DNA of 64,000 bases from Actinophytocola algeriensis. GTDB lineage: Bacteria; Actinomycetota; Actinomycetes; Mycobacteriales; Pseudonocardiaceae. The notes beneath the pieces are model-generated. The model made no database searches. It was not told where the DNA came from and was given only the letters and a program-made list of their open reading frames with translations. Positions 54,336 to 64,000 of the stretch are shown in pieces. The stretch covers positions 372,001 through 436,000 of the forward strand of contig NZ_JACHJQ010000005.1 in NCBI RefSeq assembly GCF_014203735.1, given 5' to 3'. The position numbers were made by a program, and so were the translations under genes. Each line of letters begins with the position of its first letter. Positions within the stretch are counted from its first letter, which is position 1.

Positions 54336-55391
54336 GTGGTGCGACGTTCCGGAGTTCTTCTCGCGGCGCTCGTGATGGTGGCGGGGTCGATTCATGCCGG
54401 GCCTGCCGGGGCGACGTCTGACGGGGCGGACCACCGGCGGGTCAGCACTGTCGAGTACGACCTGGGGGACACGGCGTTCACCGATCCGGAGACGGGGACG
54501 GTCAGTGAGATCCGGGCTGTGGTGCACCATCCGGTCCGGTGGCGTGGACAGCTGCCGCTGATCGTTGCGCAACACGGGTCCTGGTATGCGTGCACCGCTC
54601 CGGACGCGCAGGAGTGGCCGTGCGACAAGGGTGAGCCGTTCCCGGGCTACCGCGGTTACGACTACCTGGGTTCCGCACTCGCCGAGCGCGGCTTCGTCGT
54701 GGTGTCCATCAGTGTTGACGGCATCAACATGACCTCCTTCGACTACGGGGACCGGGCGCGTCTGCTCAACGAGCACCTGCGGCTGTGGGGCGAACTGGCG
54801 AGGGGTGCGGGGTCGCTGGCCCGGCGTCTTCCCGGTCTGGTCGGCCGTGTCGACATGGCGCGAGTGGGGACGATGGGCCATTCCCGGGGTGGCAAGGGCG
54901 TGATGTGGCAGGCGTCCGACAAGCACCGCTCGGCGTGGCCGGCTGGGGTACGGGTGCGGGCGGTGCTTCCTCTGGCGCCGGTGAAGTTCGACTGGCCGGA
55001 AGGCGACAACAGCGACACCCTGGTGACCAGAGTCCCGGTCGCCGTGGTCACCAGCGGCTGCGACGGCGCGGTGCACGAGAGGGGCCAGGAGTACCTGGAC
55101 GACGCGGAAGGAACGACCAGGGAACCGGCGTACTCCGTGTCCCTGACGCACGGCAACCACAACTTCTTCAACACGCGGTGGACACCACCCAGCCCGCTGG
55201 GGGAGGACGACAGCACCTGCCCGCGCGAACAGATCAGCCCACGGCGGCAACAGAACGCCCTGGTGACCTACGCGACCGCCTTCTACGAGCGGCACCTCAA
55301 GGGCAACGCGGCGTTCGACGCCGTGCTGACCGGTGACCGGCCCCTGCCGCACGTGGACTCTGCCACTCGAGTGGTCGTCCCGGTCGGCTGA
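54336..55391 (+). CDS. Secreted alpha/beta hydrolase
   Basis: The product is 351 residues. Signal peptide to about AGPAGATSD, then LIVAQHGSWYAC, GINMTSFDYGDRARLL, nucleophile Ser in GTMGHSRGGKGV, Asp in TSGCDGAVHE and His in LTHGNHNFF: a complete catalytic triad of the dienelactone-hydrolase/lipase type. Two Cys near the front (YACTAPDAQEWPC) may pair. Substrate unknown. GTG 54336 has AGAGG upstream. No adjoining partner; downstream lies gene debris. Confidence 0.87.
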   Translation: MVRRSGVLLAALVMVAGSIHAGPAGATSDGADHRRVSTVEYDLGDTAFTDPETGTVSEIRAVVHHPVRWRGQLPLIVAQHGSWYACTAPDAQEWPCDKGEPFPGYRGYDYLGSALAERGFVVVSISVDGINMTSFDYGDRARLLNEHLRLWGELARGAGSLARRLPGLVGRVDMARVGTMGHSRGGKGVMWQASDKHRSAWPAGVRVRAVLPLAPVKFDWPEGDNSDTLVTRVPVAVVTSGCDGAVHERGQEYLDDAEGTTREPAYSVSLTHGNHNFFNTRWTPPSPLGEDDSTCPREQISPRRQQNALVTYATAFYERHLKGNAAFDAVLTGDRPLPHVDSATRVVVPVG

Positions 55392-55412
55392 AGCCCTGCG
55401 AAAGCCGCCGGT

Positions 55413-55565
55413 GTGGCTGAAGCCGGTGACGACCGCACGATCGAGATCCCCGCGGACCACCGCCGCGGGTTCACCCGGCTGGTGCGGGAAGCCCAAGCCC
55501 GGCGCACGGTTCCCGCGCCGGACAGCGACCACGCCTTCCCGCCGTCGGGTGGGTTGCGCGTGTGC
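55413..55565 (+). pseudogene. Possible N-terminal remnant of an unidentified gene
   Basis: A GTG at 55413 opens about 50 codons (AEAGDDRTIEIPADHRRGF, then TRLVREAQARR) with normal third-position GC, then the frame runs into sequence that codes on the other strand. Too short to identify. Confidence 0.35.
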
Positions 55566-55573
55566 GGGTGGCG

Positions 55574-55612
55574 TGCGATCCCGAGCCCGACGACCAGTGC
55601 GCGTTTCCGCAT
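55574..55612 (-). pseudogene. First 13 codons of a FAD monooxygenase
   Basis: MRKRALVVGLGIA, preceded by GGAGAAGGA, is the usual start of a PHBH/tetracycline-type flavin monooxygenase just before the GxGxxG turn. The frame loses similarity right after. It follows the truncated dehydrogenase by 31 bp, as in an operon. Confidence 0.5.
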
Positions 55613-55643
55613 GACGCCGTTCCTTCTCCGTGAGTGGGCCCGG

Positions 55644-56112
55644 TCAGTCCGGGATCACGACGGCGCGGGTGCGCCCGTGATGCGCCCACGCCTCGCCGAC
55701 GCGGCTGAGCGGGTAGCCGGTGTACGGCGCGTCGAAGGTGCCGTCGGCGAACCGGGCGATGATCTCGGGAAGCTCGGCGATCATCGCGGCCTTCGAGACC
55801 GAGCCCGCGCCGCTGCCGCTGATCCGGATCCGCCTGCTGCGCAGCAGCGCCGCTGGCAGCGCCGCCTCGGTTCCGGCGAGCGAACCGATCTGCACGTAGT
55901 CGATCGCCGCGCTGTCGTCGTCCGTGCCGGTCCGTCCCAGTGCGGCGAAGGTGGCCTCGGCGACGGGGCCCCACACGAAGTCGAGCACGAGCGCGGGCGG
56001 TGCCTCGGCGACGGCGGTGGCGAGGGCGGTCGTCCCGGCGTCGCCGGCCGCGAGCGGAACGGTGACGGCGCCGAGTCCGCGCAGTCGCTCCAGCGCCTCG
56101 TGGTCGCGCCCC
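55644..56112 (-). pseudogene. 5'-truncated zinc-binding alcohol dehydrogenase/quinone oxidoreductase
   Basis: The C-terminal 155 residues of an MDR protein remain: GRDHEALERLRGLGAV after the lost glycine loop, VLDFVWGPVAEATFAAL, YVQIGSLAGTEAALPAALL and GYPLSRVGEAWAHH. The N-terminal half with the catalytic groove is missing. The frame does extend upstream to 56327 but without similarity. Confidence 0.7.
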
Positions 56113-56117
56113 CACTC

Positions 56118-56283
56118 CGCCGGCGCCGACCCGGCCCGGTACTCACTCGCCGGACGCGATGCGTGGCTGGGTGAAGGTGCCGATCTGGTCAAGGCCGCTG
56201 GACACCTCCGCGACGACGGTGACCGGAGGTTCGAGCGACAGCTCGGCGTCGTTCTCGACGGGCTCGCGGCCCGGTTGCGCTGA
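56118..56283 (+). pseudogene. C-terminal remnant of a TetR-type regulator
   Basis: GADPARYSLAGRDAWLG and then FERQLGVVLDGLAARLR before the stop resemble the end of a TetR ligand domain. No HTH is present. Its cut end faces the cut end of the dehydrogenase within a few bases, so one deletion probably removed both N termini. Confidence 0.5.
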
Positions 56284-56348
56284 CGGCGCTGTCTCGAAGG
56301 CCTCCCGCTGATCAGGCGCCCCGGCACGTCGATCGTGGTGAGATCACC

Positions 56349-57941
56349 TCACTTCACGGGAATCGACTGCGCGTGGTGGAAGATGTTCGCCGGATCCCAG
56401 CGGTGCTTCACGGCGACGAGGTTCCGCTGGTTGTCGCGGAAGTTGTCGAGGAAGTAGAGCCACAGCGCGTCATCGACGTCACCCGTGGCGTGTGTGCCGA
56501 GAACGTTGTCCGGGTAGTTGTAGTAGGCGCCCGCAACCGTTCCGCTCGGATCATTGGCCGGGTCGGGAGTCCCGCCGTACTCGGCGTAGACCTCTCGGTA
56601 GAACTCGTTGATCCACCCCAGGTGGGCGTCGGCTTGGACGTCGTAGGGGGCCTGGTTTCCCTCGCCGGGACGCGAGGCGTTCAGCCAGTAGGTCTGATAC
56701 TGCAGCTTCATGATCGCGTCGCGTTGGGGAACCGCGGTCGCGTCGGAAGCGACCCGGTTGACGGCACCCCCGTAACTGTCGACCTGCAGGAGACTCTGGC
56801 TCATATCCGACTCGGAGACACCGTGTGGGGTCGTGTTGAGCCAGCGGTAGATCGCAGCGACGTGATCCGGCGGGAAGGCCTTGTTCATGTACGCGGACTT
56901 GTACTTGCCGAACTGGTTGGGCCCCGAACCGTTCAGAGTCTGCAGCGCTTCGAGGTAGGTAGCGTGTTGCACGCTTTCGCTGCCGGTGAGGGCCGTCGTC
57001 CAGCCTGGATGGCCGCCGAGCGGGTCCCGCAACGGCGTGTGGTCGGCGATCGCCCCGAAGCGCGTTCGCGCTTCTGCGTACCGTCGCTCGACCTCGGCCC
57101 GGTGGTCGAGGTGGGTGGTCCCTTCCGGGGACACGGCCTGGACGATCATGCCGAGCTGCCCGGACGACACGTGCGTGAGCTTCAGCAAGCTGAAGTCGGT
57201 CTCGGGCATGTCACTCACGAACTCCGCGTAGCCGGCAAGCAGGTCCGCGAAGGAGTCGCTGTCGATCGAGGTCCAGTCCCAGGAGAGGGTGTAGATCGAA
57301 GCGAACTCCGGGGCATCGGGCAGCTCAGCGAAGTAGTAGCGCAGAATGACGCCGAAATTACCGCATCCGGCGCCCCGCAGGGCCCAGAAGAGGTCTCGTT
57401 CGTCGTTCGAGGTGCTCGTCGCCGACACGTGGTGCAGTTCGGCGCTGTTCGACGCCGCGTTCCAGGTCACGATGTCGACCGCGCTGAGGTGGTCGACGGT
57501 CAGGCCGCGCAACCGAGACAAGAGTCCGTAGCCGCCGCCGCTGATGTGCCCCCCGGCACCGACCGAGTAGCAGCTCCCCGCGGGAAGCGTCTTGTTGAAA
57601 CCGTTCAGCAGGGCTCGGTAGACGGACCAGTTCTCACAACCTGCCTCGACGAAGAACGCGGCCCGTCGGTCATCCCAGCCGGCACGGTTCATCGAGGACA
57701 TGTCGACGATGGCCTTGGTCGTGTCGTTGTATATGAAGTCCTCGTAGCAGTGGCGGCCGGACACGACCTTGACGTCGCGCCCGTAGCGGGAGATGGCTTC
57801 GCCGACGTGTGCGACAGCCTCAGCGTCGTTCTTGGGGACATAAACCGCCTCGAGCTTCGAGGCGAACCAGCGCCGGTCGAAGCCCTGCCGGTCGCTGAGC
57901 ACGACGGGACGTGAACCGATGCTCGCGGACGAGGTGGACAT
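56349..57941 (-). CDS. Berberine-bridge-type FAD-linked oxidoreductase
   Basis: The product is 530 residues from ATG 57941. The FAD (PCMH) domain has SGRHCYEDF, whose His is the expected 8-alpha attachment residue, and LPAGSCYSVGAGGHISGGGYG with Cys at the second (6-S-cysteinyl) site, so the flavin is probably bound twice. The C-terminal BBE domain ends YYNYPDNVLG and VKHRWDPANIFHHAQSIP. Such enzymes oxidise sugars or secondary metabolites. No signal peptide. Its GC content looks several percent below that of the neighbours, as does the next gene; both may be acquired together. Confidence 0.9.
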   Translation of the reverse strand: MSTSSASIGSRPVVLSDRQGFDRRWFASKLEAVYVPKNDAEAVAHVGEAISRYGRDVKVVSGRHCYEDFIYNDTTKAIVDMSSMNRAGWDDRRAAFFVEAGCENWSVYRALLNGFNKTLPAGSCYSVGAGGHISGGGYGLLSRLRGLTVDHLSAVDIVTWNAASNSAELHHVSATSTSNDERDLFWALRGAGCGNFGVILRYYFAELPDAPEFASIYTLSWDWTSIDSDSFADLLAGYAEFVSDMPETDFSLLKLTHVSSGQLGMIVQAVSPEGTTHLDHRAEVERRYAEARTRFGAIADHTPLRDPLGGHPGWTTALTGSESVQHATYLEALQTLNGSGPNQFGKYKSAYMNKAFPPDHVAAIYRWLNTTPHGVSESDMSQSLLQVDSYGGAVNRVASDATAVPQRDAIMKLQYQTYWLNASRPGEGNQAPYDVQADAHLGWINEFYREVYAEYGGTPDPANDPSGTVAGAYYNYPDNVLGTHATGDVDDALWLYFLDNFRDNQRNLVAVKHRWDPANIFHHAQSIPVK

Positions 57942-58000
57942 GTTCAGGACTCCATGGTCGAGAAAGGACGGTGTGGTTGGGAAGCGGTGCCGCGAGGGCT

Positions 58001-59329
58001 TCAGTAGCCGCGTTCGAGAAAGTTCGCCTGGGCCTGGTCGTCGTATTCGATCGCGCCGACTTCCCAGTAGTTCTGCCAGTAGTTGGGCGTCTGGTTGCGT
58101 TGGACCATGCGATAGGTCCACTGAGCAGTCAGCAGCCAGAGCACCAGATTCCCGGAAAGCCCGCTGATCGGACAAACCGGCTCGGCAAAGCCCGGGATGT
58201 CGAGGACGCCCGCGCCGTCGCGGCTGTGCGTGTTGATGGCGACATCGACGTGGTCGCTGAGAGAGCCGCCATCTCCGTTTCCGTCGAAGGGGCCGAAGGC
58301 GACGACCATCGCGCCGATCTGCCTGGCGTACTGGGCGACCTGGATCTCGTCGCTGTTGTCGGGGCTGATCGCGCCGATGAGCACGATGTCGTTGGCCGTG
58401 AGCTGCGTCTTGTACAAGTCGTATGGCTGCATGATCATGCTGCCGGCGGCCGTCTCGTAGGCCTCGTTGACGAACATGTTCTGCGTGCCTTCGTAGGGCG
58501 CGCCGGCCTGTGGATGCCCATACACGAGAAGGCGCGGGTGGTCCGGGGCCTCCGCGAAGAGCAGGATGCGGTCGGTCCAGGCGCGCGCCACGCGATCGAT
58601 CAGCTCGAATTCGTGCTCGCGGATCAGTTCGAAGCTCCTCAGGGCATTGTCGAGGTATTCGCGGGCCGCACCGGCGCCGTCGTCGGATCCCTTGGTACTG
58701 ATCTGCTTGCACAAAGCGGCCGTACAGGCCCAGTAGACCAGGAACTGCGAGAGGCCGCTGGAAGAGATGATCTTGAACTCGGGAATCGCCGGAGTCGAGA
58801 TCACGCCGCAGCTCCACGTGCAGCCGCTGTCGAGCACACGGTCGCAAATCTGCTCGAGCGAGGTGCTCATCTTGACCGGCAGGAAGGCGCCGATGGGGGT
58901 CTTGTAGAAGCGGGCATAACTGCAGGTGATGCCGACGGTGTACGCGCCTCGGGCGCGCGCTTCGTCCGGGCCGACATCGGGAATGGTTCCTTTGTCTGGG
59001 TTGATGAGCGATGCGCCGTTCGTGAGCAGGAAGTCGCCCGGCTTCATCTGGTTGTAATCCGCTGAGATGTTCCGGTCGGCACGCTGCGGCAGCACCGAGG
59101 GCTGCCCGGGAATGCCAGGGCTTGCCGCGAACATGGCGAAGTGTCCCACCAGGACGTGCGAGAAGATCCGGCCGCCGGAGGCCTGGCACTCGTAGGCGAC
59201 CTTCATCGCCGCACAGATTGCAGTGATCTGGGTGTCTCGAATGTGTCGACCGATGGCCTCGATCTCCGCGTGGAAGAGTTCCATGTAGGGCGTGCCCGCG
59301 AGAGGAGGTCCAACGGAAGCGTCGTTCAT
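58001..59329 (-). CDS. SIS-like (sugar isomerase fold) protein
   Basis: The product is 442 residues from ATG 59329 (AAAGGAA upstream). The order is that of a SIS fold: a helical start (YMELFHAEIEAIGRHI), GGRIFSHVLVGHFAM, DFLLTNGAS, YTVGITCSYARF, and later a second lobe with NDIVLIGAISPDNSDEI and QIGAMVVAFGPFDG. The match is by pattern only. It lies 59 bp upstream of the flavoenzyme on the same strand, suggesting they handle one sugar-like substrate. Lower GC than surroundings. Confidence 0.6.
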   Translation of the reverse strand: MNDASVGPPLAGTPYMELFHAEIEAIGRHIRDTQITAICAAMKVAYECQASGGRIFSHVLVGHFAMFAASPGIPGQPSVLPQRADRNISADYNQMKPGDFLLTNGASLINPDKGTIPDVGPDEARARGAYTVGITCSYARFYKTPIGAFLPVKMSTSLEQICDRVLDSGCTWSCGVISTPAIPEFKIISSSGLSQFLVYWACTAALCKQISTKGSDDGAGAAREYLDNALRSFELIREHEFELIDRVARAWTDRILLFAEAPDHPRLLVYGHPQAGAPYEGTQNMFVNEAYETAAGSMIMQPYDLYKTQLTANDIVLIGAISPDNSDEIQVAQYARQIGAMVVAFGPFDGNGDGGSLSDHVDVAINTHSRDGAGVLDIPGFAEPVCPISGLSGNLVLWLLTAQWTYRMVQRNQTPNYWQNYWEVGAIEYDDQAQANFLERGY

Positions 59330-59881
59330 GCGTGTTCCTTTCAGCTTTCGCGGCTGGGGACCACCTGGCGGGTGCGTGTTCGGTGATGGCGTGGGTGGGC
59401 GCGCTGAAGGGCCGATAAATGAATTTGTGTCGGGGTCTATCTGCGACACAACGTGAATCACTGTAGCAGGGCTGCCTCGGAACGATAGCCGCGTGCCGGC
59501 CATCTCACCTTATAGTGAACAAGTGGGATTCACTCAGTCGACCAGGAGATCCAGTCCGGCGCCGCAAATCCTTCAGTATAACTCCGGTCCGCGGTCGGCA
59601 ATTCGCTCAATCCATCGAACGTGACCGCATATCACTCCGTTAGGCGATCCTTCTGTCCTGTCGCGGATTCCGGAAGGGGAGCGGCGTCACTCACACAGCC
59701 CACTAACGATTACCGTGAGTCGCGTTATGCGTCCAATACCCTGTGGCGGCGACCGCTGGGCGACGCGACGACGTGCCCAACGCCGACGTGTACGGTATCG
59801 CCGACGTGGCCGGATCTTCCTGGTGTCACGTCACCGCGGAGTCCGGACGTGCCGACCGCGGTCGTCGCTATCGTGGCCGGC
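59330..59881. other. 552-bp AT-richer intergenic region
   Basis: No convincing gene: frames through it have poor codon bias. It contains inverted-repeat sites near 59451 and 59514-59534 upstream of the SIS-like gene. Lower GC continues from the preceding two genes, so it probably belongs to the same acquired segment. Confidence 0.55.
59514..59534. promoter_or_regulatory. Inverted repeat AGTGAA-N9-TTCACT
   Basis: A 21-bp near-palindrome, with a related GTGAATCACTG at about 59452. Two related sites 50-60 bp apart in front of the SIS-like gene fit a dimeric regulator (GntR/RpiR/LacI class), but no regulator gene is adjacent. Confidence 0.45.
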
Positions 59882-60238
59882 ATGGCCATCGCTCGCTTGC
59901 CCCTCATCGTCGTCGACTGTCCCGATCCTGGTGCGCTCGCCAGGTTCTACGGCGCGATGCTGGACTGGAAGATCGACGTCTCCGCCGACCGGGCTTCGGC
60001 TTGCGCTGAGGACGGCCAGTGCATCTCCTTCCACCGGGTGGACGGTTACAGGCCGCCGGTGTGGCCGACCCAGGAGCGGCCCCAGCAGATGCACCTCGAT
60101 GTGATCGTCGACGACCTCGATGTCGCCGAGTCGGCAGTGATCGATCTCGGTGCCACCAGGCATCCGGACCAGCCCGGTACGTCCTACCGGGTCTTCCTGG
60201 ACCCGGCAGGTCACCCCTTCTGCCTTTGCCTGAACTGA
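59882..60238 (+). CDS. VOC-family (glyoxalase/dioxygenase-like) protein
   Basis: The product is 118 residues: one beta-alpha-beta-beta-beta pair unit set with VVDCPDPGALARFYGAML, QMHLDVIVDDLD and FLDPAGHPFCLCLN. His and Glu-like metal positions are partly present (MHLDV), the C-terminal Glu is replaced by CLCLN. This resembles the small actinobacterial glyoxalase-like proteins, enzymatic or drug-binding. ATG 59882 taken as start; upstream GTG is possible. Confidence 0.83.
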   Translation: MAIARLPLIVVDCPDPGALARFYGAMLDWKIDVSADRASACAEDGQCISFHRVDGYRPPVWPTQERPQQMHLDVIVDDLDVAESAVIDLGATRHPDQPGTSYRVFLDPAGHPFCLCLN

Positions 60239-60266
60239 TCCGGCCGGCACGCGGTCGTCCCTGGTG

Positions 60267-62648
60267 TCAGGTGCAGTGGTGCCGGCGGAGCAGCGGCCGC
60301 TGGCTGCCGTCGGTTCCGCTGAGCATGCCGACGGCCCACACGGCGTTCCGGTTCGTCGCGTGAATCGCGGTCAGCCAACCGGTGGTCGACGGCTCCACGG
60401 GTGCCGGTGCCGTCCACCGGCCGCGTTCGCGGCGCATCAGCAACGGCAGGGTCGTGCCGGGAACACCGGTGTCCCTGGCACCGACGAACCACACCTCGCC
60501 CGAGCTCACCGGGGCGACGTCGGTGAACGTGCCGGCCAGTCCGGGCGCCGGGTCCGTGTCGGACCACCTGGTGCCGTCCCAGTGCAGGGCCAGCGGGCGC
60601 CTGCCCGTCGTGTTCCCGGCGGTGCCGACCGCCCAGGCGTCGTCCGGTGCGGACGCCCGCACGTGGCTCAGGTCGGCGCCCGGCACGTTGTCGGCAGGTG
60701 TGTGGTGCCAGCCGGTGCCGTCCCAGTGCAGCAGCAACGCGCCGTTCGCGGTCCGGCCGACGGCCCACACATCACCAGCACTGGTGCCGCCCACCGCCGT
60801 CAGCACCGCACCAGGAGTGTCGTCGGCATCGACGAGGCTCCACTGGCCGCCGGCCCACCGCAGGACCAGCACCCGTGTGCTGCCGGCGACCGCGGCCCAG
60901 CCCACCGCCCACGCCTCGGCCGGGTTCGCCGCCCAGACTCCGAGCAGGGAGGTCGACGTCGCGCCAGGGACGGCGGGCACCGGCGACTCGGTCCACCCGG
61001 ACCCGTTCCAACGCAGGACGAAACCCCTCCTGGTCGGGCCGCTGTTCCCGACCGCCCATGCCAGCTCGGGGGCGGGCGCGGTGACCGACTGCAGTTGGCT
61101 CCACTCACCGGGGCCCTCGACGGGTGTCGCTGTCCAGGAGTGACCGTCCCAGTGCGCGACCAGCGGTCCGCGATCGGTGGCGGCGCCGGTCCAGCCGACC
61201 ATCCACGCGTCGGTCGCGGTCCGGGCAGTCACGTCGAGATATCCGGTGTGGTCCGGTGCCGGTGCGGGTGCGGTGACCGTCTGCCAGGCCGGAACGCACG
61301 GCGGAGGCGGCGGTTGCGGAGAGGTCGTGCTCTCGGGCGGCGCGGTCGTGGGCGGAGTGGACTCCGGAGAGCCGCCCGGTGCGGGTTCGGACGTGTGCGG
61401 TGAGGTGGTCTGGACCGCCCCGGGCGGGTGCAGCGCCTGGTCGAACACGGGTGTCACCGGGGGAGGCGTATGCCCCGGGCCCGGGGCCGGGCCGGCCGCG
61501 GACCGTGGTTCGTCGCGGTCCGGCATGGCCTCGGCGTGTCCCGTCGGGGGTTGGGAGGAGATCAGGACGGCCATCCCCGTCGCGACGAGGGCGACCACGC
61601 CGACGATCGCGGTGACCACCCGGCGCAGGAGCTCGGGATTGAGGTGGACGAGCTGGACGATCGTGTCCGAGCCCGGGACCCGGCCCAGCGTGGCGCTCAC
61701 CGCCGCCCGCGCGCGGTCGACCGCCGAAACCGCACCGCCGGTCACGCCACCGGTCACGCCCGGGACGGCCGCCGACATGGGCAGGTCCGGCCGCCCCTCC
61801 CCGCCGCGGGTGACGATCGCCGCGATGGCTCGCCGTCGCTCCTCCTCGTCCTCCGCGAGCCCGTAGAGAGCAGGTCCGACGGCCCAGCGGCTGTACCTGC
61901 CGGCACTCTCCGCGCGGGGCGCGCAGCGAGGGCAGCCCGCGGCGTGGGCGAGCACGGTCCTGGTCCGGTCCGGGTTCAGCTCGGAGGACACTCCCGGCAC
62001 GGGGTCCGCCAGCTGGGTGCAGTCGTCCCGCCCCGCCCGCACGACGACCAGCGCGACGATCGCCTCGCGGGTGGCCTCACGGGCCCGGTTGAGCTGCCGG
62101 TCGACCCGGTCGCCGGGTAGTCCGACGGCCGCGCCGAGCGCCCTGCCGACCACTGGCCTGCCCTGCTCGACACTCAGCCGCAGGTGTTCGCGCATCAGGT
62201 CGCGCATGGTGGGTTTGAGGCTGGCGACCGCTCTCCCGAGCGTCTGCCACAGCTCTCGTTTGCCGAGCAGGTACAGCAGGTCGTCGGGCACCTCCGGCGG
62301 CCCGGCGTCGCGAGCGAGTTCCAACGCGGGCTCCGCGGGCTGCCGCGACCGGTCGCGGCCCGACTCGGCGAGCTTGCGGCGCCGCGTGCCCTCGGTGTAC
62401 CGCTCCATGAGCACGTTCCGCGCGATGCCGGCGAGCCATGCGTCCAGCACCTCGATCCGGGCGGACTTGCCGATGCCCTCGAGCGCGCGGGTGACGACCT
62501 CGCTGACGCTGTCGTCGATGTCCTCGCGTGCGGACAGCCGGGCGTGGAAGAAGGGGCGCAGCCTCGTGCGGCACCGCTCGAACAGTTCCCGGCGCGCGGC
62601 GGGCTCGCCCGCGCGGAGCCGCTCGAGCAGGTCGTCGTCGGTGTTCAC
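60267..62648 (-). CDS. Transmembrane ECF-type sigma factor with ZAS motif and extracellular seven-blade propeller
   Basis: The product is 793 residues from GTG 62648 (GGAGG 6 nt upstream). Residues 1-95 resemble sigma region 2 (DLLERLRAGEPAARRELFER, WLAGIARNVLMERY); residues 140-195 hold a region 4 HTH (VVGRALGAAVGLPGDRVDRQ). HAAGCPRC near 235-242 is the Hx3Cx2C zinc motif of anti-sigma factors. A membrane helix lies at about 343-364. A Pro/Thr linker then leads to seven repeats of about 45 residues, each with a VWAVG-like strand and an xHWDGxxW turn. Inferred to sense an outside signal directly. Propeller ligand unknown. Confidence 0.85.
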   Translation of the reverse strand: MNTDDDLLERLRAGEPAARRELFERCRTRLRPFFHARLSAREDIDDSVSEVVTRALEGIGKSARIEVLDAWLAGIARNVLMERYTEGTRRRKLAESGRDRSRQPAEPALELARDAGPPEVPDDLLYLLGKRELWQTLGRAVASLKPTMRDLMREHLRLSVEQGRPVVGRALGAAVGLPGDRVDRQLNRAREATREAIVALVVVRAGRDDCTQLADPVPGVSSELNPDRTRTVLAHAAGCPRCAPRAESAGRYSRWAVGPALYGLAEDEEERRRAIAAIVTRGGEGRPDLPMSAAVPGVTGGVTGGAVSAVDRARAAVSATLGRVPGSDTIVQLVHLNPELLRRVVTAIVGVVALVATGMAVLISSQPPTGHAEAMPDRDEPRSAAGPAPGPGHTPPPVTPVFDQALHPPGAVQTTSPHTSEPAPGGSPESTPPTTAPPESTTSPQPPPPPCVPAWQTVTAPAPAPDHTGYLDVTARTATDAWMVGWTGAATDRGPLVAHWDGHSWTATPVEGPGEWSQLQSVTAPAPELAWAVGNSGPTRRGFVLRWNGSGWTESPVPAVPGATSTSLLGVWAANPAEAWAVGWAAVAGSTRVLVLRWAGGQWSLVDADDTPGAVLTAVGGTSAGDVWAVGRTANGALLLHWDGTGWHHTPADNVPGADLSHVRASAPDDAWAVGTAGNTTGRRPLALHWDGTRWSDTDPAPGLAGTFTDVAPVSSGEVWFVGARDTGVPGTTLPLLMRRERGRWTAPAPVEPSTTGWLTAIHATNRNAVWAVGMLSGTDGSQRPLLRRHHCT

Positions 62649-62846
62649 GCGTTGCCTCCGAAAGTCGACCGAACACACCGTGAGACCAGTGGACGCCGCG
62701 GTCGAAATCTCCCCACTCCCGACCAGAATTCCGCCCGATCTGTTGCGAATGCAATCGACCATCCCGGTGACCGCCGTCAGCGGGGGAGGAAATACCGCGC
62801 ACCGCCACTACCCCCTCATGAACACCCAGCCGAAGGAGGGACTCCG

Positions 62847-63467
62847 ATGAACACGACATCGTGGTGGCGCCGGAAGTCCCCGGACCACCGCATCCCGGAG
62901 CACCGCACGATCGTCGTCGTCGACATGACCGGTTCGGGGAGCTGGCACAACCAGGTACAACTGCGGGCCCGCGCCGCGTTGACCGAGTCGGTCCGGGCCG
63001 CGCTGCGCGGCGCCGGAATCCCGCGCCATTCGGTAGCGGTGGAGGACCGCGGCGACGGGATGATCCTCCTGTTCCCCGCGACTGTCCCGAAGGTCGTGAT
63101 CCTCGACCCGGCGATCCGCCTGCTCGCCGAAGGCATGAACGCCCACAACACGACGTCGGGAGATCCACGCATCCGCCTCAGGCTGTCCGTGCACGCCGGC
63201 GAGGTGCACCGGCACGGACGAGGCTGGGCGGGCAGCGACCTGAACACCGCATGCCGCCTGGTCAACGCGGGCCCGCTGTACGACCTGCTACGCAGGCACC
63301 CCCACACGGACCTGGCACTGGTCCTCTCCGACGTCATCTACCAGGGCACCGCGCGCCACCACTACCGCGACATCGACCCGGCCACCTACCACCCGATCTC
63401 CGTACAGGTCAAGGAACTGCACGCCACTGCCTGGCTCACCGCCCTGAGAACCACAGCTACGTGGTGA
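62847..63467 (+). CDS. Class III nucleotidyl cyclase-like regulatory protein
   Basis: The product is 206 residues (AAGGAGG upstream). TIVVVDMTGSGSW opens the fold, VEDRGDGMILLFP follows where catalytic cyclases have the second metal site, and RLSVHAGEVHRHGRGW then DLNTACRLVNA match the cyclase dimerisation/substrate segments. Standard catalytic Asp/Asn/Arg residues are only partly kept, so it may be a degenerate sensor rather than an enzyme. Divergent from the sigma-factor gene with 198 bp between. Confidence 0.78.
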   Translation: MNTTSWWRRKSPDHRIPEHRTIVVVDMTGSGSWHNQVQLRARAALTESVRAALRGAGIPRHSVAVEDRGDGMILLFPATVPKVVILDPAIRLLAEGMNAHNTTSGDPRIRLRLSVHAGEVHRHGRGWAGSDLNTACRLVNAGPLYDLLRRHPHTDLALVLSDVIYQGTARHHYRDIDPATYHPISVQVKELHATAWLTALRTTATW

Positions 63468-63495
63468 CCAGCGCGCGCACGTTGGGTTCATCTGG

Positions 63496-63945
63496 TCAGC
63501 GGGCGCGGCCGTCGCGGAGCATGGTGACTGATTTCTCGACGCGTGCTGCTCGTGTCTCGGCTTTCTTGGCGCTGGTCACCTGGTGGACGTGCCATGACTG
63601 CTTGCTGTAGGACAGTGTGTTCCAGAACTTCCTGGCCGCCTCGTCCGCGGTGAGCGCGGCGGCGAGGTCTTCGGGTACCTCGATCTCACGGGGCTCGGTG
63701 TCGAGTTCCACGTCGACGTCGAAGACCTGTCCGGTTTCGATTCCGCTCTGCGCGCGCCGTTCGGCGCTCACACCGAGGAGAAACCGGCCACCCATCCTGG
63801 CGATCGAGGTCCGGAACGTGAAACCGTCGACGGTCACGGTCACCTTCGGGTGACCGCCTCCGCCCACACCCTCGACGACGTCCTCGGGCACCTCGAAGCC
63901 CGCGGTGGTCTTGCCGGTCGACTCCAGCTCAGCACGAAATCTCAT
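63496..63945 (-). CDS. YdeI/OmdA-type protein with DUF1905 domain
   Basis: The product is 149 residues from ATG 63945 (63978 possible but unlike the family start). MRFRAELESTGKTTAGFEVP and VEGVGGGGHPKVTVTVDG are DUF1905; the C terminus (ARKFWNTLSYSKQSWHVHQV, SAKKAETRAARVEKSVTML) is the YdeI/OmdA helical part. Family members are linked to bacteriocin or polymyxin tolerance, exact role unknown. Confidence 0.87.
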   Translation of the reverse strand: MRFRAELESTGKTTAGFEVPEDVVEGVGGGGHPKVTVTVDGFTFRTSIARMGGRFLLGVSAERRAQSGIETGQVFDVDVELDTEPREIEVPEDLAAALTADEAARKFWNTLSYSKQSWHVHQVTSAKKAETRAARVEKSVTMLRDGRAR

Positions 63946-64000
63946 ACGGCCATGATGACAAGCCGGCTTCGCGCTCATGTCTCGCTTTCTCCACCCGGCC

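Follow-up and report, generated by a model that had tools for sequence, protein, structure and literature searches.

A putative one-piece membrane sigma factor with a predicted propeller sensor and a cyclase-like partner gene in Actinophytocola algeriensis

A stretch of 64,000 nucleotides from Actinophytocola algeriensis (the window; all coordinates below are positions in this stretch) contains a gene that encodes, in one chain, the domains of an extracytoplasmic function (ECF) sigma factor, an anti-sigma domain with a zinc motif, a single membrane helix, and a predicted beta-propeller. With moderate confidence, we read its product as a membrane-anchored, self-inhibited ECF sigma factor that would use the propeller as an outside sensor and activate both its own gene and that of an adjacent, cyclase-like partner. 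The features computed for this reading are the domains of the protein, the conservation of its zinc ligands, the conservation and pairing of the candidate promoters, and the gene neighborhood.

Domain make-up of the window protein

On the minus strand (60267..62648), an intact frame of 793 amino acids runs from a GTG at 62648 to a stop at 60267. A GGAGG ribosome-binding site is located six bases upstream of the GTG (62655..62659, minus strand). Read on the plus strand, 60267-62648 is broken by stops, and the G+C content by codon position of the longest open reading frame in the frame of the gene (831 codons) is 0.73, 0.61, and 0.89, a gene-like profile.

Sigma region 2 was assigned to residues 3-95 (62364..62642, minus strand), and region 4 to residues 122-206 (62031..62285, minus strand), with its final helix continuing toward the inhibitor domain. 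When the window protein was searched by itself, Pfam Sigma70_r2 matched at E 0.001 (19.3 bits, below the cut-off of 24) and no region 4 was called by Pfam; NCBIfam TIGR02937 (sigma70-ECF) covered residues 18-195 at E 1.5e-5, with 24.7 bits against a cut-off of 42.9, and PHROGs returned a generic sigma family only. A profile of seven rows, consisting of the window protein and six relatives, matched solved ECF sigma factors over residues ~2-199, among them AlgU (6in7, E 1.5e-9), sigma-E (1or7, E 6.7e-9), and SigW (E 5.7e-5). The sigma residues are kept across these rows, at 37-47% identity to the window protein, and in a wider alignment of 25 rows (A2), Pfam found region 2 in all 25 and region 4 in 14 at E 0.5 or better. 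In an AlphaFold2 model of residues 1-375, the block means of the predicted local distance difference test (pLDDT) were 89-97 for residues 1-90 and 131-210. The modeled region 2 superposes on region 2 structures of sigma-E at 1.5-2.2 Å (template modeling score, TMt, up to 0.86), and the best Foldseek matches of the whole model were sigma-E, AlgU, and other ECF sigma factors. As judged by sequence homology, the protein is an ECF sigma factor with regions 2 and 4.

The sigma domains are followed by a class-I-type anti-sigma domain (residues 207-279; 61812..62030, minus strand). Its zinc motif, C-x24-Hx3Cx2C, is formed by C210, H235, C239, and C242, which are invariant in all seven rows. Pfam zf-HC2 matched the window protein below threshold (E 0.036), and was found at E 0.5 or better in 7 of the 25 rows of A2, 17 of which carry the region. 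In class I anti-sigma domains (ASDI), Hx3Cx2C extends across helices 2 and 3 and a further helix comes after them (PMC7406223). The same arrangement is predicted here: the motif lies across helices 226-238 and 243-256, and a helix at 268-279, whose block means in the model are low (60 and 72), would stand at the place of the sigma-2-binding helix of ASDI. By its motif and the predicted helices, the inhibitor domain of the window protein is thus of the ASDI kind, but differs in being fused in line behind its own sigma factor.

One hydrophobic stretch was found, at about residues 338-364 (61557..61637, minus strand), with two arginines at its start; as a single membrane helix, it would place the N-terminus inside the cell and the carboxyl-terminus outside. 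Behind it lies a proline- and threonine-rich linker (residues 365-459; 61272..61556, minus strand), and 29 of the 90 residues from 376 to 465 are prolines.

The outside part (residues 451-793; 60270..61298, minus strand) contains seven xWxVG repeats between 481 and 770, while one chance match to this motif, at 254, falls in the cytoplasmic part. Residues 460-793 were modeled with AlphaFold2 as a single sequence, with no alignment. The best of five models had 27 strands, a pLDDT of 80.3, and a predicted template modeling score (pTM) of 0.82; pLDDT across the five ranged from 80.3 to 50.8, the second best reaching 77.6. The best Foldseek matches were YCF48 chains (E 1.6e-10, 16% identity), the top entries being YCF48 with D1 peptide. 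The likeness is one of fold: a search of the PDB by sequence gave no meaningful match to the propeller (best E 2.1, to an unrelated protein). A propeller with seven blades is predicted from the seven repeats together with the 27 strands, not from a blade count on the coordinates. C451 and C792, the sole cysteines of the outside part, flank the propeller, and the propeller protein of another genome (G019, see below) likewise has cysteines at both propeller ends, which suggests that a disulfide closes the ring. No NPCBM domain was found in the window protein in a Pfam scan at E 5.

The original prediction, made from the sequence alone, had described a single 793-residue chain with sigma regions 2 and 4, an Hx3Cx2C motif, a membrane helix, and seven propeller repeats, without giving the strand. 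The chain proved to be continuous, sigma-fold similarity was present in residues 1-195, and each of these domains was recovered; the strand can be added as minus.

Candidate promoters and the cyclase-like partner gene

Next to the sigma gene of the window, head to head with it, lies a gene for a cyclase-homology-like protein (62847..63467, plus strand). Such a gene adjoins the sigma gene in 9 of the 13 loci of this clade that have flanks on both sides (the window, L034, L035, L036, L038, L039, L047, L048, and L052), and is absent at L044, L046, L053, and L055; L037 was left out of this count, as its locus is cut by a contig end. In eight of the nine the two genes are arranged tail to tail, the window being the exception. 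Given that the genomes contain 4 to 22 cyclase-like paralogues each (E 1e-6, eight genomes), this adjacency would rarely arise by chance. Many of these paralogues, in genome G110 and others of the eight, lie in frames of 400-1240 amino acids, and the family seems little described.

The profile of the partner proteins matched a Ma1120-type cyclase weakly (E 0.0017), in the part that contains GDG and HxGxV. D26 is invariant in all nine rows and GDG is kept in six, with GHG in L034 and GDE in L038 and L052; the latter two carry a distant version of the partner (27-28% identity). Pfam gave no convincing match for the nine members (best E 0.069) and none for the partner protein of the window, and PADLOC gave no match. 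The family evidence for a class III nucleotidyl cyclase is therefore weak but consistent, and the partner is best treated as a putative one. At L038 (4424-5284) and L052 (10462-11166), a gene that by eye encodes a Crp/Fnr-like regulator stands beside the cyclase-like gene; it is 97-99% identical between the two species, while the other genes that they share at these loci are mostly 59-93% identical.

A paired-word scan upstream of the sigma genes found sharing in 5 sequences, compared with 2-4 in 20 shuffles. The site in the relatives, GGGGAGAAC-N14-CACGTACC, can be written as AAC-N16-CGT and lies ~60-75 nt upstream of the start codon. Its spacing is that of ECF promoters, such as those of sigma-W and its kin. 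Ten of 13 relatives (L035, L036, L037, L039, L044, L047, L048, L052, L053, and L055) have the site directly upstream of sigma, with a variant in L052 whose spacer is one base longer (GGGGAGATC) and variants in L035 and L044 that keep 4-5 of the 8 bases of the right half. In L034, L038, and L046 it is found upstream of the preceding gene on the same strand instead, and in L034 another copy lies 350 nt upstream of the sigma gene.

Partner genes were scored with a weight matrix whose training set was nine sigma sites; L037 had been dropped from it as near-identical to L036. The null consisted of 20,000 windows from 87 other loci, and replaced an earlier one from the ortholog loci, which contained true sites and under which six of the partner genes had scored p 0.007 to 0.042. 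All nine partner genes were scored, with start codons set by hand from an alignment of the family (A3). Sites at p 0.03 or better were found for six (L034, L035, L036, L039, L047, and L048), at 49-66 nt. Four apparent secreted-protein genes beside sigma genes, picked because an earlier scan had indicated them, scored p 0.0015 or better at 61-69 nt. At L034 (10034-10948), L038 (10075-11010), and L046 (4997-5926), an apparent secreted-protein gene stands directly upstream of sigma on its strand and has this promoter in front of it, and is likely a second target; the 19 kb around the sigma gene of the window contained no relative of this gene. The matrix found no site (p 0.14 or worse) directly upstream of sigma in those same three loci, nor for the glyoxalase gene of the window, the kinase-like gene of L044, the next gene of L053, or the sigma gene of L040.

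In the window, each strand of the 198 bases between the sigma gene and its partner shows the core GGGGAG-N16-[CG]CAC: a degenerate ECF-like site for the sigma gene (62684..62714, minus strand), with its 5' end 66 nt from the GTG, and a matching core for the divergent partner gene (62783..62813, plus strand), with its 5' end 64 nt from the ATG. Among 100,000 dinucleotide shuffles, 190 had a site on either strand, 4 had a partner-side site at 45-75 nt, and none had both. The two copies share a variant with CCACT in place of the CACGT of the relatives and no AAC. This variant has no other exact match in the genome of 9.7 Mb, and at one mismatch it has four more, compared with 9 for the reversed control; as the pattern was made from both sites, its absence elsewhere is the informative part. 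From these features, an ECF-like promoter appears to precede both the sigma gene and the partner gene.

Across 14 whole genomes, the pattern of the relatives gave 97 matches with up to two mismatches, compared with 11 for the pattern reversed; coding sequence may account for part of this excess. Five matches were exact and all were at the sigma locus, as would be expected of a pattern that is their consensus, so that it is the lack of an exact match elsewhere that informs. Of the 92 inexact matches, four were recognized at sigma loci, and more targets are possible among the other 88.

Distribution, outside domains, and known systems

Close relatives of the sigma part are rare. Among 150 sampled genomes of the family, they occurred in the window genome and six others (E 3e-29 or better), and all other matches were at E 5e-7 or worse. 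Of five other genomes of the genus, three had a distant match of the L040 type only (E 3e-19 to 9e-17) and two had none at E 1e-10; among 394 sampled genomes of the class, that of the window alone had a match better than E 6e-25. Scanning named genomes gave at least 12 clade loci, five of them on contigs already found. Combined, the clade covers at least 14 genomes, sparsely spread among actinobacteria: the window genome, one further genome, and members of Lentzea, Actinokineospora, Kibdelosporangium, Saccharothrix, Actinosynnema, and Embleya, along with a record named "Rhodococcus". Actinokineospora auranticolor is a member of the Pseudonocardiaceae; Lentzea, Kibdelosporangium, Saccharothrix, and Actinosynnema also belong to that family, and Embleya does not. 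The Rhodococcus rhodnii NRRL B-16535 record (L036/L049, JOAA01000003.1; genome of 12.4 Mb) looks misnamed, since its neighbor genes are 87-98% identical to those of a Kibdelosporangium aridum locus (L037/L050). With one-piece relatives in at least 13 further genomes, and a propeller-bearing sigma protein in G019, a chance fusion or a sequencing artifact was rejected.

While the cytoplasmic part is shared, the outside domains differ. Of the 14 clade proteins compared, 8 carry tandem repeats of ~80 residues (type A) and 5 have a repeat that is longer and of another kind (type B); the window protein alone carries a propeller. Both types were assigned by eye on the translations and are backed by cross-matches; for five relatives, Pfam gave nothing above cut-off beyond the sigma part. 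Within the 150 genomes of the family, G019 has the nearest relative of the window propeller (44% identity, E 8e-45, ahead of the next at 1e-24), and it too is part of a chain of sigma, zinc, helix, and propeller. The N-terminal part of that protein matched the profile of A2, of which it is no member, at E 8.6e-24, and in trees it falls outside the clade of the window protein (clade support 93 and 97). Among 32 frames with at least two repeat motifs, taken from 59 loci, only those of the window and G019 join propellers to a sigma part.

As the closest propeller sits on a different one-piece sigma line in another genome, sensors appear to have been exchanged, and judging by sequence the propeller has probably moved between such lines. 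Supports deeper inside the clade (58-80) are too low for the direction or number of these exchanges. A broader interpretation, to which we give an even chance, is that of a plug-in platform: a constant module of sigma, inhibitor, and helix, whose sensors are swapped and which works through a private ECF promoter and a cyclase-like partner, mainly on its own locus. Unrelated sensors would then have been joined by recombination, namely the propeller and two kinds of repeat in this clade and other domains in its wider kin, and each copy would be a self-contained transmembrane transcription switch.

The window genome encodes two more one-piece sigma factors, L040 (490 amino acids; G000:C6) and L041 (502 amino acids; G000:C3), the latter on the ECF52 side of the tree. 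Both were observed as sigma-zinc-helix chains with other outside parts, one of them Ig-like by eye. In Actinomadura, four proteins (L086, L078, L054, and L057) form a further one-piece branch with a short outside domain.

The one-piece design itself is already known. In SCO4117 of Streptomyces coelicolor (ECF52), a single chain likewise combines sigma factor, zinc finger, membrane helix, proline-rich stretch, and outside domain, and expression of SCO4117 is activated in a strain that makes a protein truncated to its sigma domain (PMC5826349), which supports release by proteolysis for SCO4117. The outside domain of ECF52 is a carbohydrate-binding module, where the window protein has a propeller. 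Seven sigma+NPCBM proteins from 7 of the 8 genomes searched served as stand-ins for ECF52, chosen by architecture and not including SCO4117 itself; in the sigma-inhibitor part the window protein is 18-22% identical to them and forms a separate group (split support 99). Assignment to ECF52 was rejected, as outside domain and tree placement both disagree with it. Section 3.5.3 of PMC8999054 describes ECF48, ECF52, and ECF53 as fusions to a carboxyl-terminal membrane anti-sigma with a zinc finger, for which proteolysis is expected, and for some ECF52 and ECF53 members a carbohydrate-binding or glycosyl hydrolase domain has been predicted (PMC10766802). By the descriptions given in these two sources, ECF48 and ECF53 share the fusion design, and a propeller is not mentioned there. 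Some members of ECF57 have WD40-like repeats in a carboxyl-terminal extension, but the description suggests a role in protein interaction and names no anti-sigma zinc domain (PMC8999054). IutY of Pseudomonas putida (ECF243) is also a sigma factor fused to a membrane anti-sigma and is processed by Prc and RseP; it belongs to a Gram-negative iron-siderophore system, and the account there describes no propeller (PMC8999054). The same review, from 2022, names IutY as the one experimentally characterized case and SCO4117 as the best understood of ECF48, ECF52, and ECF53.

The original prediction had presented the one-piece sigma factor as unusual and as a possible direct switch from outside signal to sigma factor, perhaps by proteolysis. 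The architecture is real, and the switch is a fair deduction that corresponds to the published model for ECF48, ECF52, and ECF53, but neither the kind of protein nor the design is new. In the parts covered of the open-licence PMC literature, which the main ECF classification paper stands outside, we found no propeller-bearing membrane sigma factor with an anti-sigma zinc domain, no swapping of outside domains within a single sigma line, and no promoter pair of a sigma gene and a cyclase-like gene.

Proposed mechanism and competing readings

In the mechanism we propose, the sigma-2 and sigma-4 domains, fused to their own class I anti-sigma domain, would probably be clamped by it, and the single helix would lead outside to a propeller whose ligand at the cell surface is probably a peptide, protein, or sugar. 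Ligand binding would open the clamp or cause the chain to be cut, and the freed sigma factor would bring RNA polymerase to the GGGGAG...CAC promoter of its own gene and of the partner gene, giving positive feedback, perhaps on a mainly local gene set. In this scheme, topology, self-inhibition, ligand, release, and the reading of the promoter by the sigma factor are what we infer; release by proteolysis is plausible by analogy.

Several results weigh against this proposal. The packing of the inhibitor on the sigma domains was not fixed by AlphaFold2 (pTM 0.51), so that self-inhibition remains a proposal; over both domains, the model deviates from known ECF sigma factors by 11-22 Å (root mean square deviation), and no whole-model Foldseek match reached E 0.001 (best 1.6e-3). 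The matrix found no site for the partner genes of L038 and L052. In the window sites, the relatives' AAC and CGT are replaced by ATT and CTG in one copy and by GAA and CTA in the other, and the matrix scores of these sites are modest (p 0.016 for sigma and 0.11 for the partner). Finally, the core by which they were paired was chosen after the window sites had been seen, although all its letters occur in the sites of the relatives.

Two departures from the proposal seem to us unlikely. The chain might not be cut at all: the full-length protein would stay in the membrane, and the signal would loosen the inhibitor, such that nearby targets are transcribed there. This would agree with the clearest promoter sites adjoining the sigma gene itself, and the case for cleavage of the window protein is one of analogy. 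On the other hand, the model published for the kin groups has the sigma factor released by proteolysis (PMC8999054), and a long proline-rich spacer with a single helix would suit regulated proteolysis. At a similarly low probability, another regulator might read the promoter-like motif while the sigma part does other work, as the motif is known from conservation alone, the window copies depart from its AAC and CGT blocks, and of the 92 inexact genome matches only four were recognized at sigma loci. The ECF-type spacing of the motif speaks against this, as do the confinement of exact matches to the locus of this sigma factor in the 14 genomes and the lack of such a site at L040, a one-piece sigma gene of the same genome (matrix score -10.1).

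Less probable still is that the zinc motif is the sensor, with zinc loss or cysteine oxidation freeing the sigma factor and the propeller serving only as an anchor or adhesin. Redox-responsive anti-sigma factors such as RsrA have a ligand set like C-x24-H-x3-C-x2-C, and that set is invariant in the seven rows; its first cysteine is out of register in L055, however, and sensing outside is suggested by the large and varied outside domains that all 14 clade proteins carry. In membrane anti-sigma factors, moreover, the motif may be structural (PMC7406223). We regard it as very improbable that the window protein is a surface protein with a sigma part that has lost its function. The missing Pfam call of region 4, a region 2 below cut-off, and the degenerate promoter copies would fit such decay, but the conservation of the sigma residues over seven rows and the promoter core retained on both sides of the intergenic region do not.

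How one-piece membrane sigma factors are released is still an open question in the field. Here, the clade provides natural swaps of the outside domain on a cytoplasmic part that stays constant, together with a compact conserved promoter that could be used as a reporter, so that both the signal sensed and the cutting of the chain become directly testable in it. It also offers a design for single-protein switches from the outside of the cell to a gene.

Scans for sigma-70 promoters and terminators found none, and an Rfam scan of 55000-64000 gave no matches. Tail to tail with the sigma gene lies a glyoxalase-like gene (59621-60238, plus strand). Just downstream of the sigma gene, 56349-59503 on the minus strand encodes by eye an FAD-linked oxidase and a SIS-domain-like protein, the latter matching SIS_2 at E 1e-4, below cut-off.

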